Source of the DNA: a virus
Length of the DNA stretch: 48,119 nt
Direction: 5' to 3' (one strand)
Virus record (IMG/VR): IMGVR_UViG_3300037635_002421
Span: 1 to 48,119 of that record
Shown: in pieces, positions 11,105-48,119 of the stretch
Layout of the letters: the number at the start of each line of letters is the position of its first letter
Position numbering within the stretch: position 1 is the first letter of the stretch
The notes under the pieces: model-generated
Seen by the model: the letters and a program-made list of their open reading frames with translations, nothing else
The model's database searches: none
Told to the model about the DNA's origin: nothing
Made by a program: the position numbers and the translations under genes

Positions 11105-11140
11105 GATAAAAAGGATGGGGGGACCTTGTAGATCCCCCCT
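11105..11140 (-). terminator. Probable intrinsic terminator after MoxR gene
   Basis: Minus strand GGGGGGA (11133-11139 side) pairs with TCCCCCC (11117-11123 side) around a 9 nt loop, followed after ATCC by TTTTT. It lies between the MoxR stop and the VWA promoter. A weaker outer inverted repeat (AGTCTCTGTG/CACAGACT) lies at about 11141-11190. Confidence 0.7.
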
Positions 11141-11194
11141 TAGTCTGTGCCGCTTAGTGTAGGTTGTAGGAGTAACTGGCGACACAGAGACTAA

Positions 11195-13358: not shown

Positions 13359-13386
13359 AAAAAAGGGTCCTAGGACCCTTTTTTTA
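13359..13386. terminator. Bidirectional intrinsic terminator
   Basis: AAAAAGGGTCC followed by TAGGACCCTTTTTTT: a perfect palindrome centred on CCTAGG with A and T tracts on both sides. It ends the + strand 41-codon gene and the minus strand gene at 13403-13615, which converge here. Confidence 0.9.
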
Positions 13387-14088: not shown

Positions 14089-14368
14089 TTACAACAGGCC
14101 CACTTTCTAATTTAACTACACAAAATTCTTCTGTGTTAAATTGTTTGTTTAGCCGCTCTGCTAAGTTAAATGCATGTCCAGGATTAGAAAAACTAGTTTT
14201 CTTATACTTTGGTCCAGGATAATCTAAGTAAGAATGCATAGTTCTTAGATTAATTGGCGAACCTTGAAAGAACACACTAAAAACGTTTCCAGCCGCTAGT
14301 ACCTGCTCTGTTTTATAATTTGTAGTATCGTGATGCTCTAAAATTACTGTTGGTTTTGGTCTACTCAT
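14054..14368 (-). CDS. Hypothetical protein
   Basis: 104 residues beginning MSRPKPTVILEHHDTTNYKT; contains YLDYPGPKYKKTSFSNPGHAFNLAERLNK. It looks like a small DNA- or protein-binding alpha/beta domain; not recognised. AGGAG is 8 nt upstream, preceded by a GATAAATA box. Confidence 0.6.
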   Translation of the reverse strand: MSRPKPTVILEHHDTTNYKTEQVLAAGNVFSVFFQGSPINLRTMHSYLDYPGPKYKKTSFSNPGHAFNLAERLNKQFNTEEFCVVKLESGPVVSEDEVKNGNSK

Positions 14369-14386
14369 GTATGTCTCCTGTACTTT

Positions 14387-14394
14387 TATTTATC
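14387..14394 (-). promoter_or_regulatory. T4-type late promoter box GATAAATA
   Basis: Minus strand GATAAATA, 18 nt before the ATG at 14368, leaving room for a short leader with AGGAG. Confidence 0.6.
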
Positions 14395-14416
14395 TAAAAT
14401 ACAGTTAAAACATACT

Positions 14417-17695: not shown

Positions 17696-18583
17696 TTATT
17701 TTCCTATTGCATTTCCGTATATATGAACGTGGACTCTGCTTGTATAATTGTATCCACGTTGTATAGCCTCATCGGCAATGGTGGCTTCAGTTTGTACTAA
17801 GCCTTCAAATGTGCCGCCAACTCCCATAATCCATACAGGGAAATTACAGCCAGCATCTCTAAACAGTTTTACATTGTCTTCCACTTCTTGCCAACTTGCT
17901 TCTGAGCCATTAACAACAAACTTCAATTGTCCTTTAGGACTTACTTCAGCATATCTACCAATTACTTCTGGCTGTATTGCTTTCTTAGGCTTCTCACCAG
18001 CAGTACTCCATAACTTAGGCGATAAACTCCAATACCATTCTCTGCCTATCCAACCTGTATAATTACGATGTACCCAATCAGCAAATTCATCTGTGATAGG
18101 CTTGGTGCCGTTAGTTTCCACAGTAACGTTCATTGGCATATTATCTCTGCGTTTGAACTCTTCTATAATGTTCATCATGCCAGGCTGTGTGTTTTTAAGC
18201 ATTGGCTCGCCGCCTGTAAAGACCATGTGTGCGTTTTGTTGTGTAACTGGGTGTACAAACTTACCGTGCGGTAGAAGTGCTGTAAGTTCGTCTACGGCTT
18301 CATCTACAGTTTTATCAGTGATAAGATGTTTATATTTCTTACTCCAAGTGTAACTGCTATCACAACCTTTTTCAAACACAGGTAAATCAAATACATTAGT
18401 GATGTCTGTGATATCTAATTTTTCATATGGTAAATCATATGTGCTAGGGTCTGTTGGGTCTTTTTGTCCAAAGCCATTACATTGTAAATTGCATAGGAAG
18501 AATCTCATCCACAGACTAGGGATACCTACATACTGGCCTTCCCCTTGTGCTGAATAAAATGTTTCGCTATACTTTAATGTCAT
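17696..18583 (-). CDS. queE: QueE-like radical SAM enzyme (7-carboxy-7-deazaguanine synthase)
   Basis: 295 residues. Starts KYSETFYSAQGEGQYVGIPS, the classic QueE opening. Cluster cysteines are C31 and C35 (CNLQC) and, after a 38-residue insert, C74 in GCDSSYTW, which corresponds to the WCDTPYAW of ordinary QueE. FTGGEPML and VETNGT follow. It would turn 6-carboxytetrahydropterin into 7-carboxy-7-deazaguanine. It overlaps folE by one base, forming a two-gene pathway unit. The split cysteine motif is odd; I believe related marine phages share it, but cannot check. Confidence 0.88.
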   Translation of the reverse strand: MTLKYSETFYSAQGEGQYVGIPSLWMRFFLCNLQCNGFGQKDPTDPSTYDLPYEKLDITDITNVFDLPVFEKGCDSSYTWSKKYKHLITDKTVDEAVDELTALLPHGKFVHPVTQQNAHMVFTGGEPMLKNTQPGMMNIIEEFKRRDNMPMNVTVETNGTKPITDEFADWVHRNYTGWIGREWYWSLSPKLWSTAGEKPKKAIQPEVIGRYAEVSPKGQLKFVVNGSEASWQEVEDNVKLFRDAGCNFPVWIMGVGGTFEGLVQTEATIADEAIQRGYNYTSRVHVHIYGNAIGK

Positions 18584-19272
18584 TACTTATCGCAAGAATA
18601 TTGTTGTTGTAGTTTAATGTTATCCATAAACTCTTTCTTTGTACCTGCGTCATTTTTAAATGCGCCTTTTAATACAGTTGTTTGTGTAAGACTACTATGT
18701 GCCTTAACACCTCTGTTCTCTACGCAACCATGTGTGGCTTGTACATACACACCTAAGTGCTCGGCCCCTGTTGCTTTTTGAATCTCTCTAACAATGTCGT
18801 TAGCAAGTTCTTCTTGTAATGTACCTCTAGCCGCACACCATTGTGCAATCCTAGTGTACTTACTCAAACCAATTAGTTTGTCTGCGGCAATGATACCAAT
18901 GTATGCCACACCTCTAACAATCTGATGGTGATGTGAACACATACTTGTGAGTTCACTTCTTACAACCAGCATACCTTCATATCTATCTTCGCTGTCGTTA
19001 GGGAAAGCAGTTGCATTAGGCATGTTTTCGTATCTACCAGCCATTAGTTCATTAATATACATTTTAGCAAGACGCCTACCAGTATCATTACTGTTAGGAT
19101 CATTTTCAGTATCAATAACCAAGCCTTGTAATACATCCTCGAACTTAACCGCAAGTTCGTCAATCAGTTGTTGCTTCTCTCCGTCTTCAATAAAGTCAGA
19201 GATATTGTCGCCGGCCCAATGTCTTTTGCCTGCCTCAACTAATCTTTGTTTAATTTTTTTACTTGTTTCCAT
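18583..19272 (-). CDS. folE: GTP cyclohydrolase I
   Basis: 229 residues. Zinc ligands in CSHHHQ (C112, H114/H115) and C183 in THGCVENRGV; GLSKYTRIAQWCAARGTLQEELA matches the family core. It makes dihydroneopterin triphosphate from GTP, the entry to folate and to 7-deazaguanines. With QueE next to it, the deazaguanine role is favoured. AAGGAG lies upstream, within the coiled-coil gene it overlaps by 14 nt. Confidence 0.92.
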   Translation of the reverse strand: METSKKIKQRLVEAGKRHWAGDNISDFIEDGEKQQLIDELAVKFEDVLQGLVIDTENDPNSNDTGRRLAKMYINELMAGRYENMPNATAFPNDSEDRYEGMLVVRSELTSMCSHHHQIVRGVAYIGIIAADKLIGLSKYTRIAQWCAARGTLQEELANDIVREIQKATGAEHLGVYVQATHGCVENRGVKAHSSLTQTTVLKGAFKNDAGTKKEFMDNIKLQQQYSCDK

Positions 19273-26600: not shown

Positions 26601-26633
26601 TTATTATATCATTTTTTGTGGCCAATGTCAACC
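26601..26633 (-). repeat. 33 bp promoter repeat, copy 2
   Basis: One mismatch to 20121-20153. Here the promoter is followed by a leader with a Shine-Dalgarno rather than directly by the ATG. Confidence 0.9.
26603..26631 (-). promoter_or_regulatory. Consensus sigma70 promoter for glycosyltransferase gene
   Basis: Minus strand: TTGACA (26626-26631), 17 bp, TATAAT (26603-26608). The -35 overlaps the stop codon of the alternative oxidase gene. Confidence 0.93.
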
Positions 26634-27221
26634 GTTTTTCCTTTTAAATGATGTATCGCCATCTGCGTACTTGTGATTAATTTTGCTGTGATGTTGTTCA
26701 TCTGCTCTAACTTTTTTAATCAAATCACTTAACTTAGCATCATCCTTCATTTTATAATATTTGATAGCAAGTTTAGGTGCAGGTACATTTGGCACTTCAC
26801 CACTTTCAACTAATTCTAAATAACTAGTATAACTTCTTACTGCCTCTTCTTCAAAGTAAGCAATCATTCTGTGTGCTGTTTTGTAATCTATTATATACAA
26901 TACAGAGTAAAATAACATAAAAATAAATTGAGCAAACAAAACCAAATACCTTTCAAACCAATTAGGTTGTGCTATCTCAATAAAGAACATTAAGTGCATT
27001 CTTTCATTCTCTGCTTCTGCTAACATCTCTCTTATGTCAGGCCCATACCCAACTTTCATCTTACGCAGGCTTTTCATGTGTAACCACATACCAGCAACCA
27101 TGCCAGGAACACCTGCTACTGTTTCTAATACAACTGCTCTATGACCATAACGTTTAGCAAAGAATGTATCTGCTATAAAGCGAAAAAACTTTGTCATGCT
27201 CATTGCTAACTTGTCTCGCAT
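26628..27221 (-). CDS. aox: Alternative oxidase (AOX)
   Basis: 197 residues of the membrane-bound diiron ubiquinol oxidase family. Ligand motifs: LETVAGVPGMV (E33), AENERMHLM (E73, H76), FEEEAVRSYT (E124-E126) and RADEQHH (E175, H178). A hydrophobic stretch at 92-111 is the monotopic membrane patch. AENERMHLM marks it as AOX rather than the plastid-type PTOX known in cyanophages (NExHHLL). AOX passes electrons from ubiquinol to oxygen without proton pumping, so it could keep redox balance during infection. Smaller than plant AOX, as in bacteria. It starts with a one-base overlap on the next gene. Confidence 0.9.
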   Translation of the reverse strand: MRDKLAMSMTKFFRFIADTFFAKRYGHRAVVLETVAGVPGMVAGMWLHMKSLRKMKVGYGPDIREMLAEAENERMHLMFFIEIAQPNWFERYLVLFAQFIFMLFYSVLYIIDYKTAHRMIAYFEEEAVRSYTSYLELVESGEVPNVPAPKLAIKYYKMKDDAKLSDLIKKVRADEQHHSKINHKYADGDTSFKRKNG

Positions 27222-35497: not shown

Positions 35498-35505
35498 TAT
35501 AAATA
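35498..35505 (+). promoter_or_regulatory. T4-type late promoter TATAAATA (+ strand, leaderless arrangement)
   Basis: Exact T4 late consensus, 5 nt before the ATG at 35511. No Shine-Dalgarno is present. Confidence 0.7.
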
Positions 35506-35510
35506 TATGT

Positions 35511-36179
35511 ATGAGTACAGAATACACTAAATGGACTGTAGATAGAATATTAGATACAGCACCAATTGAAACAGATAAACTACACGTTATGGATGTAGAA
35601 AATTTTATGCACCCTGATTTGTACGCACAGGTACAAAATTGTATACCATGGAATCAATGGCAAAACGAGGAACTACCAGGTAGACATGGGTATCATATAG
35701 GTCCAGACGACCCACAAGAAGCATTGCAAATAGCCACAGAATATGTGTATAGAAACCAAGAGGTTTTAGATGCAATAGGTAATGTAATGAATATGTCAAG
35801 TAATGTAAACATCAATCAACCGTTTATGTGGATGGACACAAACAAAAATTCAGTACATGATGTTCACGTAGATCACCCTTCTTACTATTATACAGTTCAG
35901 CATTCATTAGCAGATACAGATGAATTTGCACACACAGGTACTATGTTTTGGGAGGTTGATTGTGCTTATGATCAAGCCATAGACGAAGGACTAGATCCTA
36001 CATTTGGCGAAGATAGTAAATTAGTACGAATGGGACACCAAATGCCTTATGTTCCTAATAGGGCATACATATTACCAAGAAGCAGTAAAGGTTGGCATAG
36101 TTGCCCGGACCTTACTGTAGAACCGGACACTATGCAAAGGGTTATGGTTTATTTAATTGCTACTCTTCAGAAAACTTAA
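35511..36179 (+). CDS. 2OG-Fe(II) oxygenase-like protein
   Basis: 222 residues, the only large gene on the + strand. Motif order fits a double-stranded beta-helix dioxygenase: H119-V-D121 in HDVHVDHP, distal H196 in KGWHSCP and R210 in QRVMVYLIA as the 2-oxoglutarate anchor. It would use oxygen and 2-oxoglutarate to hydroxylate a substrate. It sits among tail-fibre genes, one of them collagen-like, so a virion protein is a possible target; DNA or a host factor cannot be excluded. Probable leaderless start. Its 3' end overlaps the convergent gene by 20 bp. Confidence 0.7.
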   Translation: MSTEYTKWTVDRILDTAPIETDKLHVMDVENFMHPDLYAQVQNCIPWNQWQNEELPGRHGYHIGPDDPQEALQIATEYVYRNQEVLDAIGNVMNMSSNVNINQPFMWMDTNKNSVHDVHVDHPSYYYTVQHSLADTDEFAHTGTMFWEVDCAYDQAIDEGLDPTFGEDSKLVRMGHQMPYVPNRAYILPRSSKGWHSCPDLTVEPDTMQRVMVYLIATLQKT

Positions 36180-45951: not shown

Positions 45952-46311
45952 TTAATTGCTTAATAAAATTTGTGAGATACTACCGTAAGATGACTCGTAT
46001 GTACTACCATCGCCGACTCCTGTTCTATCTAGAACGGCTCTTAGGTATACATAATTACCCTTAAATGTGTGAATTTCTGTGCCTGTAGTTGCAGATGCTT
46101 TTTCAATTAGTTTAATATCTCCCCAATCGGCTGATTCAGGGGTTAATGATAGTGTGCCTTGCAGTTTAATCTTGCCTACAAAAGCATTTAACTTTACACT
46201 AACGGAGTGAATTCCGTCCGTATAACCGAAATAACTATCTGCTTTGATTTTGTCGCCGGTTAAACTCATGTTATCGCTTGAGTTTCCTAGCATTTCTAAT
46301 GTTCTTCTCAT
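45952..46311 (-). CDS. Small virion structural-like protein
   Basis: 119 residues from MRRTLEMLGNSSDNMSLTGD, chosen because GAGG lies 6 nt upstream; the longer frame uses a TTG within that site. Beta-rich (IHSVSVKLNAFVGKIKLQGT), similar in feel to small fibre-associated proteins of marine phages. Its ribosome-binding site and ATG lie in the stem of a long inverted repeat. Confidence 0.65.
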   Translation of the reverse strand: MRRTLEMLGNSSDNMSLTGDKIKADSYFGYTDGIHSVSVKLNAFVGKIKLQGTLSLTPESADWGDIKLIEKASATTGTEIHTFKGNYVYLRAVLDRTGVGDGSTYESSYGSISQILLSN

Positions 46312-46355
46312 AAGTAGCCTCAATTGTATTTATCTCAATAAGGCACTTATGAGAA
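46305..46355 (-). promoter_or_regulatory. Inverted repeat hiding a ribosome-binding site, late promoter in loop
   Basis: In the minus-strand RNA, UUCUCAUAAGU pairs with ACUUAUGAGAA (11 bp), GCCU with AGGC (4 bp) and UAUUG with CAAUUG-type bases (5 bp) across two single-base bulges. The 9 nt loop is AGAUAAAUA, which contains the late -10 box. The 3' arm holds GAGG and the AUG of the gene at 45952-46311. Read-through RNA would fold and mask the start; RNA started at the late box lacks the 5' arm. Confidence 0.8.
46327..46334 (-). promoter_or_regulatory. T4-type late promoter box GATAAATA
   Basis: Minus strand GATAAATA inside the loop of the inverted repeat at 46305-46355. Expected start about 46320-46321, just upstream of GAGG. 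Confidence 0.75.
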
Positions 46356-46360
46356 TGTTG

Positions 46361-46834
46361 TTAAACTTGTTCGAGTCGAGTCATCAGTCTTTCAGCACGG
46401 TTAGTTACTTGTTTGTGCCATCTTGAATCTCTACCTTCCTTTGCGGCTTCTTTCCAATCTTCTTTTAGAATTGCGGCATGCATTTTCTTAAACTTACTAA
46501 GTCTTGTACGACCCATGTTAAACATCATATTAACCAAGATTTGCTGGACCTCGTCTGGTAAGTCTCCAAACACCCCTTCTTCGTATAATAACTCACACTC
46601 AGATATTGCTGTGTCAAGGTCTCTTTCAAAACATTCTTTAACACGTTCTTCTGATACTGGTGTTCCAACTTCTGCTCCATGCTCTGGATCGGTGTCGAGG
46701 ACCAAATGCCCCACTCCAAAAGTCGGGTATCCCAAGTGGTCGAGGTAGATCTCATTGACTACTCCTTCATCTATTTTAAGTTGCTCAAAAACTGCTTCTC
46801 TATCTAATTTTGTGTCTCTTCCAAATAATCCCAT
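46361..46834 (-). CDS. e: T4-type lysozyme (GH24 endolysin)
   Basis: 157 residues, close to T4 lysozyme (164). Catalytic E23-D32-T38 have the same spacing as T4 E11-D20-T26, in IDEGVVNEIYLDHLGYPTFGVGH. The C-terminal lobe contains VNMMFNMGRTRLSKFKKM and the closing DSRWHKQVTNRAERL. No signal peptide is visible, so a holin or baseplate association would be needed for access to the wall. It cleaves peptidoglycan glycosidic bonds. Confidence 0.93.
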   Translation of the reverse strand: MGLFGRDTKLDREAVFEQLKIDEGVVNEIYLDHLGYPTFGVGHLVLDTDPEHGAEVGTPVSEERVKECFERDLDTAISECELLYEEGVFGDLPDEVQQILVNMMFNMGRTRLSKFKKMHAAILKEDWKEAAKEGRDSRWHKQVTNRAERLMTRLEQV

Positions 46835-47383
46835 TTATAATTCCTCTGTGGTAACAACTTTATATATTTCGCTATTACCTACTGTTAATTGTAATTTAGC
46901 AACATCTTTTTTATTGGTCATGTAAACTGTTGATTTCCAACCATCACCAGTGTGTGTTACTTTTGCATCCATACTAAGTTTGCTAACTTTTTTAACCCAA
47001 TCAATATTTGGCCAATACTTGTATGCTACATATCTATATTTATTAAAAAACAGTTGTCTTCTAAGTATTTGATTATTTGATGTAATAACATCATATTCTT
47101 CTTGCGAACGTATACCTTGTACACTAATTATACTATCTTTAAATTTTCTAATAAATTTTTTAGCAACTTTGCTATCTGAAAAATACACTGAATAATTTTT
47201 GTGCCATGCAAATTTCATTGTGTCCCAGCAGTACTGATTTTGAAATTTGTATATTTCTTCTAATACCATAGGATCGTGTATAAGCCAATTGCCTTTTACT
47301 TCTGCTTTGATATGATACTTATTCCACCATAATTTAAATGATGGCCGGATATCTATACCGGAAACAGTATTGCCTAAATTCAT
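46835..47383 (-). CDS. Hypothetical phage protein
   Basis: 182 residues, basic and aromatic-rich (FKLWWNKYHIKAEVKGNWLI, KFAWHKNYSVYFSDSKVAKK). Alternating strands suggest an alpha/beta domain. No family recognised. It overlaps the Clp gene by 4 nt and abuts lysozyme. Confidence 0.55.
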   Translation of the reverse strand: MNLGNTVSGIDIRPSFKLWWNKYHIKAEVKGNWLIHDPMVLEEIYKFQNQYCWDTMKFAWHKNYSVYFSDSKVAKKFIRKFKDSIISVQGIRSQEEYDVITSNNQILRRQLFFNKYRYVAYKYWPNIDWVKKVSKLSMDAKVTHTGDGWKSTVYMTNKKDVAKLQLTVGNSEIYKVVTTEEL

Positions 47384-48119
47384 TTGACAGTGAATTCAAA
47401 CTGCTCAATATAATCTACAAGTACTACGCCTTCCTCTATTTTATCAAACAATATTTTTTTACTAATTGGCTTCTTGACAACATCTTCGAACAATCTTTTT
47501 AAAGGCCTTGCACCCATGCTAGGTTCAAATCCGTTATCTGCAATATATTTCTTAGCCGCTTTGGTAAGTTCAATACTAACTTTACTGTCATTACTAGCAA
47601 GTAATTCGTTTGTTTCTCTAACAATTTTATCAATAATAAGATTAACTTCTTTCATTCCTAGTTTGTTAAACTTAACATAAGAGTCTATCCTGTTTCTAAA
47701 CTCTGGTGTGAAGAAACTTTTGACTGCTTTTATATCTGTGTCTGTATGTGATGTTTCACCAAATCCAATCTTGCTTGTTTCTGCCTTGGCGGCACCTAAG
47801 TTACTTGTCATTATAAGTGTAACATTACTGAAGTCTACTTGCTTGCCTGTTGCACCTGTAAGTCTACCATCGTCCATTACTTGTAGTAACACTTGTAATA
47901 CTTCTGGTGCGGCTTTCTCTACTTCATCTAGTAGCAACACACAATTAGGATTCTTATCAATTTCAGAAAGCAACATGCCTTGTCCTAGTTCGCCTTCTGC
48001 GTGTCCTACATAACCTGGAGGAGCACCAATTAGTTTACTTACACTATGTCTTTCCATATACTCTGACATGTCAAACTTAACAAGTTTAATATCTAATTCG
48101 TCTGCTAATGCTCTTGCTG
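47380..48119 (-). CDS. ClpA/ClpB-type AAA+ ATPase, C-terminal part (5' end outside window)
   Basis: About 246 residues visible; the frame runs through the right edge. RALADELDIKLVKFDMSEYM and GAPPGYVG (pore loop) are D2-domain signatures, followed by Walker B VLLLDEVEKA, TLIMTSNLGA (sensor 1), FRNRIDSYVKF (arginine finger) and GARPLKRLFE (sensor 2). ClpA needs an IGF/IGL loop to bind ClpP; the D2 region between sensor 1 and sensor 2 has IGFGE, which hints at ClpA but is not in the usual place. It may unfold or disaggregate proteins. Confidence 0.88.
   Translation of the reverse strand, partial: ARALADELDIKLVKFDMSEYMERHSVSKLIGAPPGYVGHAEGELGQGMLLSEIDKNPNCVLLLDEVEKAAPEVLQVLLQVMDDGRLTGATGKQVDFSNVTLIMTSNLGAAKAETSKIGFGETSHTDTDIKAVKSFFTPEFRNRIDSYVKFNKLGMKEVNLIIDKIVRETNELLASNDSKVSIELTKAAKKYIADNGFEPSMGARPLKRLFEDVVKKPISKKILFDKIEEGVVLVDYIEQFEFTVK

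Follow-up and report, generated by a model that had tools for sequence, protein, structure and literature searches.

Introduction

Control of late translation by a leader hairpin is documented, in the available text of the respective papers, for the bacteriophage T4 genes e, soc, 49 and I-TevI (PMC3014915), and the same mechanism for I-TevII, I-TevIII, segB and the mobE gene of phage Aeh1 (PMC2988022). In I-TevI, I-TevII, I-TevIII, segB and mobE, as far as the latter text describes them, the hairpin sequesters the ribosome-binding site (RBS), overlaps the promoter and forms on longer transcripts (PMC2988022), and soc and gene 49 are presented as late genes with an inhibitory leader structure (PMC3014915). 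Among jumbo phages, CBB and GAP32 are described as carrying the late motif ATAAATA, with 35 sites in CBB, which also has a gp55-like sigma (PMC5259590). Their box is the same as the one analysed here, and the available text of that paper mentions neither an RBS-masking nor a leaderless arrangement (PMC5259590). Our search of the open-access literature returned nothing on this arrangement outside T4, or on leaderless late genes behind the box, which is not proof of absence.

Here, we analysed a stretch of 48,119 nt of viral DNA (IMG/VR record IMGVR_UViG_3300037635_002421; hereafter, the window), in which the initial annotation had placed a late promoter inside the loop of an RBS-masking hairpin. 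The locus resembles T4 gene e in that the box lies largely in the loop, the Shine–Dalgarno sequence (SD) is located in the 3′ arm and the late RNA would lack the 5′ arm; moreover, an identical start rule gives each of them a late leader beginning with GAGG. With the same folding, six of the eight box bases of gene e fall in the terminal loop (five of eight in I-TevII), compared to all eight in the window, so that the geometry here is essentially that of gene e, and the coincidence of promoter and loop, originally regarded as a departure from T4, amounts to a more exact overlap. The spacing between the box and the ATG is 13 nt in gene e and 15 nt in the window, where the 20-bp stem, unlike that of gene e, takes in the AUG and the first codons. 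Moreover, the window belongs to another phage group, its masked gene probably specifies a virion protein, and its hairpin is known from predicted folds. The I-Tev, segB and mobE genes encode homing endonucleases, whereas the masked gene of the window is not recognized as one; a homing-endonuclease leader of the I-TevI type was rejected because the open reading frame (ORF) has no endonuclease match and its PHROGs are either unknown or virion structural.

Predicted structure of the hairpin

In minus-strand RNA, positions 46355-46336 pair with 46326-46305, enclosing the loop 46335-46327 (AGAUAAAUA), which consists of an A followed by the late box GATAAATA (Table 1). The claim of an approximately 20-bp repeat around a 9-nt loop nearly identical to the late box was thus exact in its coordinates, and the GAGG (46321-46318) and the ATG (46311-46309) of the gene at 45952-46311 are indeed contained in the 3′ arm, where the fold predicted for read-through RNA pairs both, as proposed. 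Folding with and without the 5′ arm agreed with the same annotation: the full hairpin is stable (minimum free energy (MFE) −22.2 kcal/mol, z −4.59; none of 200 shuffled sequences reaches this energy), and RNA from the predicted late start at 46321 has no fold (−2.1 kcal/mol, z +0.9). RNAs begun at 46336 or 46326, which also lack the 5′ arm, are similarly unstructured (−1.6 kcal/mol).

Table 1. Features of the hairpin locus and of related sites in the window
Feature	Position	Strand	Remarks
RBS-masking RNA hairpin	46305..46355	-	predicted fold; 20 bp, two bulged bases, 9-nt loop
5′ arm	46336..46355	-	predicted absent from late RNA; first base 5 nt past the lysozyme stop codon
3′ arm with SD and start codon	46305..46326	-	
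Late box GATAAATA within the hairpin loop	46327..46334	-	T4-type
Shine–Dalgarno GAGG	46318..46321	-	paired in the stem
Predicted late transcription start	46321	-	6th base past the box; predicted from the T4 rule, the spacing-5 peak and the purine rise
Masked ORF, 119 aa	45952..46311	-	PHROG 13657 (unknown) and 14467 (virion structural protein)
Phage lysozyme gene (PF00959), upstream of the masked ORF	46361..46834	-	
ClpA-like gene, farther upstream	47380..48117	-	
Second hairpin of the same design	14369..14415	-	loop A+GATAAATA, GGAG in the 3′ arm; p 0.01
Late box of the second hairpin	14387..14394	-	
ORF masked by the second hairpin, 104 aa	14054..14368	-	MSRPKP family, no known function
Late box TATAAATA, spaced exactly 5 nt from the downstream ATG (ORF 35511-36179)	35498..35505	+	predicted leaderless late mRNA

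In raw MFE, the hairpin is unexceptional, being matched by 387 of 19,216 segments of 81 nt (top 2%). By raw energy, the window folds most strongly at positions 11116-11194, in a gap between two minus-strand ORFs, where a GGGGGG/CCCCCC stem is combined with a second long stem. Upon composition correction, for which 25 shuffles per segment yield a noisy z, the segment starting at 46379, over the hairpin, ranked best of 4804 (z −5.8), and the exact segment from 46360 had a z of −4.7, reached by 15 of the 4804; the top 25 include the plus-strand copy of the hairpin and the second hairpin at 14369-14415. The hairpin is absent from the list of a gapless inverted-repeat finder, and no Rfam family was found in the window at gathering thresholds.

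Because no T-run follows the stem on either strand, the hairpin does not resemble an intrinsic terminator (a GC-rich stem plus a T-run), and this candidate was rejected. The PeSL cassette of T4-type phages comprises a sigma-70 promoter and a terminator stem-loop; here, we found no terminator beside the hairpin, and the loop contains a late-type box. Elsewhere in the window, a perfect 13-bp palindrome at 13359-13384 (AAAAAAGGGTCCT/AGGACCCTTTTTT) resembles a two-way terminator.

The masked gene and its neighbours

The length of the masked ORF is counted from the ATG at 46311-46309; in the ORF list, the first codon is instead an in-frame TTG at 46323. The PA5oct ortholog, which shares 36% identity and is located directly after clpA, is annotated as a structural protein on the basis of ESI-MS/MS, and the masked gene probably codes for a virion protein. 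Upstream on the same strand follow the lysozyme gene, an ORF without known function and the ClpA-like gene. With the two nearest matches listed per locus, 50 of the 54 distinct orthologous loci have clpA or lysozyme at most 2.5 kb upstream, 42 of them clpA, and in the five distinct close-clade loci, lysozyme is immediately upstream of the masked gene. The B-family polymerase of the window is, among the listed records, nearest to those of Phosso (48% identity) and Atu_ph07 (44%). The window also encodes a phage-borne alternative oxidase (26628-27221, minus strand; PF01786, E 9e-69) and a GTP cyclohydrolase I (18583-19272, minus strand; PF01227) adjoining an ORF (17696-18583) that weakly matches radical-SAM proteins; together (17696-19272), the latter two might be part of a deazaguanine pathway.

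Conservation of the hairpin in relatives

All 21 close relatives that we fetched keep the inverted repeat with GATAAATAC in its loop and GAGG in its arm, so that the arm comparison suggested at the outset came out in favour of a maintained stem, box and SD. These relatives reduce to six distinct hairpins (z −2.6 to −7.3), and on these six sequences only rests the covariation, namely pair-preserving changes on both sides at about four positions, one beside the loop and three just before the ATG; the latter three may represent a single coordinated shift. Six cells of the pair-by-pair comparison are U-G pairs, which leave the pairing intact exclusively in the minus-strand RNA, and a DNA palindrome or an opposite-strand RNA therefore explains them less well. 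The pairing-probability test and the scan for neighbours and terminators used nine of the 21 close loci, the others being identical or nearly so. Part of the basal stem is missing from L016; neither L016 (p 0.78) nor L020 (p 0.25) is significant in the pairing-probability test, and the L020 helix (record G010) is significant in the helix test (p 0.02).

In more distant relatives, the Phosso ortholog has a 16-bp stem (AAAATCTCCTTTCCTG/CAGGAAAGGAGATTTT) with the loop GUAAAUA and GGAG in the arm (z −6.0). Nine of the 23 GTAAATA copies of Phosso precede genes, and GTAAATA is plausibly a box variant there; the stem, with the T's after it, could also act as a terminator. In the Atu_ph07 ortholog, AAAATCTCC pairs with GGAGATTTT (z −5.3), the arms enclosing a longer, itself partly paired stretch with TATAAGTA. 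The arm sequences of these two orthologs are unrelated and the masking hairpin is still present; judging from the relatives compared, structure rather than sequence is what is kept. The PA5oct ortholog has no masking hairpin.

Among the distinct ortholog upstream regions (collapsed at 90% identity), the range searched for a box contained none in 17 of 54. Because this range left out spacing 5, the predicted leaderless loci L169, L193 and L221 are among the 17; L104 and L105, which have variant boxes, belong to them as well. These counts cover 53 of 59 further loci (all but L195, L203, L212, L215, L216 and L225). In the pairing-probability test, p ≤ 0.05 is attained by only five of the 37 box-containing orthologs, two of them via a distant box, and we rejected the idea that every ortholog of the gene has the hairpin. 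The masking reading of the hairpin itself is well supported by the maintained stem, box and SD of the close relatives and by the masking hairpins of the two deep orthologs.

The metric used to score masking is not a clean classifier: when applied to T4, it returned p 0.01 for e, 0.07 for both gene 49 and I-TevII, 0.21 for soc and 0.40 for segB, so that two known cases fail and two others are only at 0.07.

The same device at other genes

The initial annotation considered the arrangement specific to this gene, which did not hold: by predicted fold, at least two more genes of the phage lineage share the device, namely the ORF at 14368, with a hairpin of the same design (Table 1), and a class-3 lipase (PF01764), with a close variant. 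The lipase is encoded by the 92-kb, very close relative G001, which also encodes both masked window proteins at 100% identity. A 12-bp masking stem surrounds its box and has AGGAG inside; the box, located between the arms, is mostly paired in an inner stem, with two of eight bases free, and the masking test gave p 0.01 in two runs and 0.059 in a third. The lipase box (L264, L267) is also part of the palindrome TATTTATCGATAAATA, which places a late box on the opposite strand as well.

In the MSRPKP family (79 of 80 loci and four isolate loci, collapsed at 85% identity), a box precedes the gene in 54 of 60 distinct upstream regions, 16 of which reach p ≤ 0.05; over the 54 regions, the SD/AUG segment has a median pairing of 0.67 when the RNA reads through, compared to 0.54 for shuffled sequences and 0.33 for RNA from the predicted late start. 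A second layout within this family has the predicted start inside the 5′ arm, and 22 of its 23 distinct members pair at 7-8 of 8 positions, with one pair being A-U in 7, G-C in 13 and G-U in 2. At least six enclosing pairs were counted in 35 of 80 loci of this layout analysis, a figure with no null behind it.

Across records, the duplex test found 12 of 68 gene-associated boxes at p ≤ 0.05 (window 2/4, G001 3/8, G004 3/8, G010 1/6, G013 1/9 and G014 2/33), and the helix test, in seven records, 19 of 124 boxes, with about 6 expected (G001 3/7, G014 3/33, G013 1/9, G004 2/7, G010 1/6, Phosso 6/37 and PA5oct 3/25); because the window, G001, G004 and G010 share orthologs, these record counts are not independent. 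A hairpin at every late promoter is rejected by both totals. Most late boxes of the 237-kb relative G014 lack a masking hairpin.

Late box, late start and predicted leaderless mRNAs

The related records show an enrichment of ATAAATA ahead of genes; within the window itself, 4 of 15 copies precede genes, hardly above controls, and a reversed-motif control is uninformative, since the motif is its own mirror image. In T4, late transcription begins at the sixth base past the box. Over all fetched loci (T4 excluded; ORFs of at least 70 codons), an ATG follows ATAAATA at a spacing of exactly 5 nt in 32 distinct genes, at a spacing of 4 in 7 and at a spacing of 6 in 2. Spacing 5 accounts for 32 of 629 ATAAATA sites versus 33 of 8657 sites of ten control heptamers (Fisher 8e-21), and this contrast is conservative because one control, TTAAATA, itself peaks at spacing 5 with 18 of the 33 pooled sites; TTAAATA is perhaps another box variant. 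An SD-like motif precedes one of the 32 genes and is lacking in the other 31. Because spacing 5 puts the sixth base past the box at the A of the AUG, it predicts leaderless late mRNAs. Boxes with a leader show a purine rise at the sixth base (A 0.52, G 0.18; n 110), and the spacing-5 peak and this rise lend independent support to a start at that base.

The spacing-5 class is concentrated in the metagenomic relatives: seven boxes each in G001 and G004, eight in G014, three in G013 and two in G010, compared to two in PA5oct and none in the scanned 110 of 169 kb of T4 or 396 of 469 kb of Phosso. Examples are found at 35498-35511 on the plus strand of the window, in G001 (pieces L111-L115) and in G014 (L116-L127). 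Of ten spacing-5 genes scanned, two match virion structural PHROGs and one matches tail tube PHROGs. Two radical SAM proteins of the 92-kb relative (L113:18253-19791 and L114:12105-13955, both minus strand) also have spacing-5 boxes; they combine PF04055 with a B12-binding-like PF02310, the latter below the cut-off in the L113 protein.

A gp55-like late-sigma profile matches six of the 11 records of the group; none was found in the other five, namely the window, G001, G004 and G010, which are incomplete (48-92 kb), and the 237-kb G014.

Three arrangements upstream of one gene

The 54 distinct ortholog upstream regions include seven with the hairpin (five from the window clade, Phosso and Atu_ph07) and three with spacing 5 (L169, L193 and L221), of which L193 and L221 also have a terminator. 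In eleven others, all distant orthologs, an intrinsic terminator lies directly before a leadered box and there is no masking hairpin (L103, L192, L198, L199, L207, L208, L209, L211, L213, L222 and L227). The terminator scan of the five window-clade regions (L001, L011, L016, L017 and L020) found none, and in the remaining 33 of the 54 regions, many of them box-less, our scans detected no hairpin, spacing 5 or terminator. Hairpin, leaderless start and terminator would each render read-through RNA useless for the masked gene, and selection appears to act to keep this gene silent until late.

Discussion

Our analyses point to a start-site-gated translation switch of the T4 gene e type at the masked gene, to which, on the strength of the predicted folds, their conservation and their recurrence at other genes, we assign a probability of roughly 0.8. 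RNA reading in from the clpA–lysozyme side would contain both arms, fold and hide the GAGG and the AUG from the ribosome. A phage late sigma would bring RNA polymerase to GATAAATA, and RNA would start about 6 nt past the box, at the GAGG; this late RNA would be devoid of the 5′ arm, leaving the short leader GAGGCUACUU-AUG free for translation. We infer the exact late start, the phage's own late sigma, the early read-through RNA, the translational effect and the timing.

One alternative to the switch arises from the position of the lysozyme stop codon, just 5 nt before the 5′ arm. Given the size of the ribosome footprint, a ribosome terminating there would cover the basal arm, and ribosomes finishing lysozyme could thus open the stem, the masked ORF being translated from read-through RNA whenever lysozyme is. 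When the arm outside 46347 is removed, the stability of the remainder exceeds that of shuffled sequences only slightly (z −1.4), in line with such coupling; however, the remaining stem still pairs the GAGG (−8.3 kcal/mol), though the AUG is freed, and we regard translational coupling as unlikely. The same short distance, together with the lysozyme gene immediately preceding the masked one in all five distinct close-clade loci, would also suit a hairpin that serves the lysozyme mRNA as a 3′-end stabilizer or an RNase processing site, its overlap with the next gene being incidental. Yet the ORF at 14368 and the lipase have similar hairpins behind other upstream genes, the box is located between the arm and the SD in every such hairpin, and the hairpin would be missing from the late RNA, which makes a role in lysozyme mRNA very improbable.

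Equally improbable, in our estimate, is a function of the inverted repeat as a DNA operator, with a dimeric repressor bound to the palindrome around the late box, similar to the autorepression by I-TevI. The late box is central in the repeat, and T4 offers, according to the available text, a case of a late promoter under autorepression (PMC2988022). Nevertheless, the arms vary between genes and deep orthologs, yet the pairing stays, and U-G pairs and bulges are tolerated, which fits RNA in the sense direction.

For the jumbo-phage group as a whole, we consider the chances to be about even that the late programme is imposed mostly at the level of translation, through the site at which the RNA starts. 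Many late genes would be leaderless, with the box 5 nt before the ATG and without an SD, others would have a masking hairpin, with either the box in the loop or the late start inside the 5′ arm, and the virion gene behind clpA would swap hairpin, leaderless start and terminator between lineages, with the start codon of read-through RNA being unusable in every case. The pattern of hairpin, leaderless start and terminator at one gene, combined with the exact spacing of 5, is a more novel part of these findings than the switch itself.

The hairpin class is testable in the cultured phages Phosso and Atu_ph07, and cultured PA5oct offers two spacing-5 candidates. The spacing of 5 between box and ATG would fix the position of the late start from sequence alone and predicts leaderless late mRNAs, and the switch, as read here, would extend the mechanism of T4 gene e to a distant, mostly uncultured group of jumbo phages.
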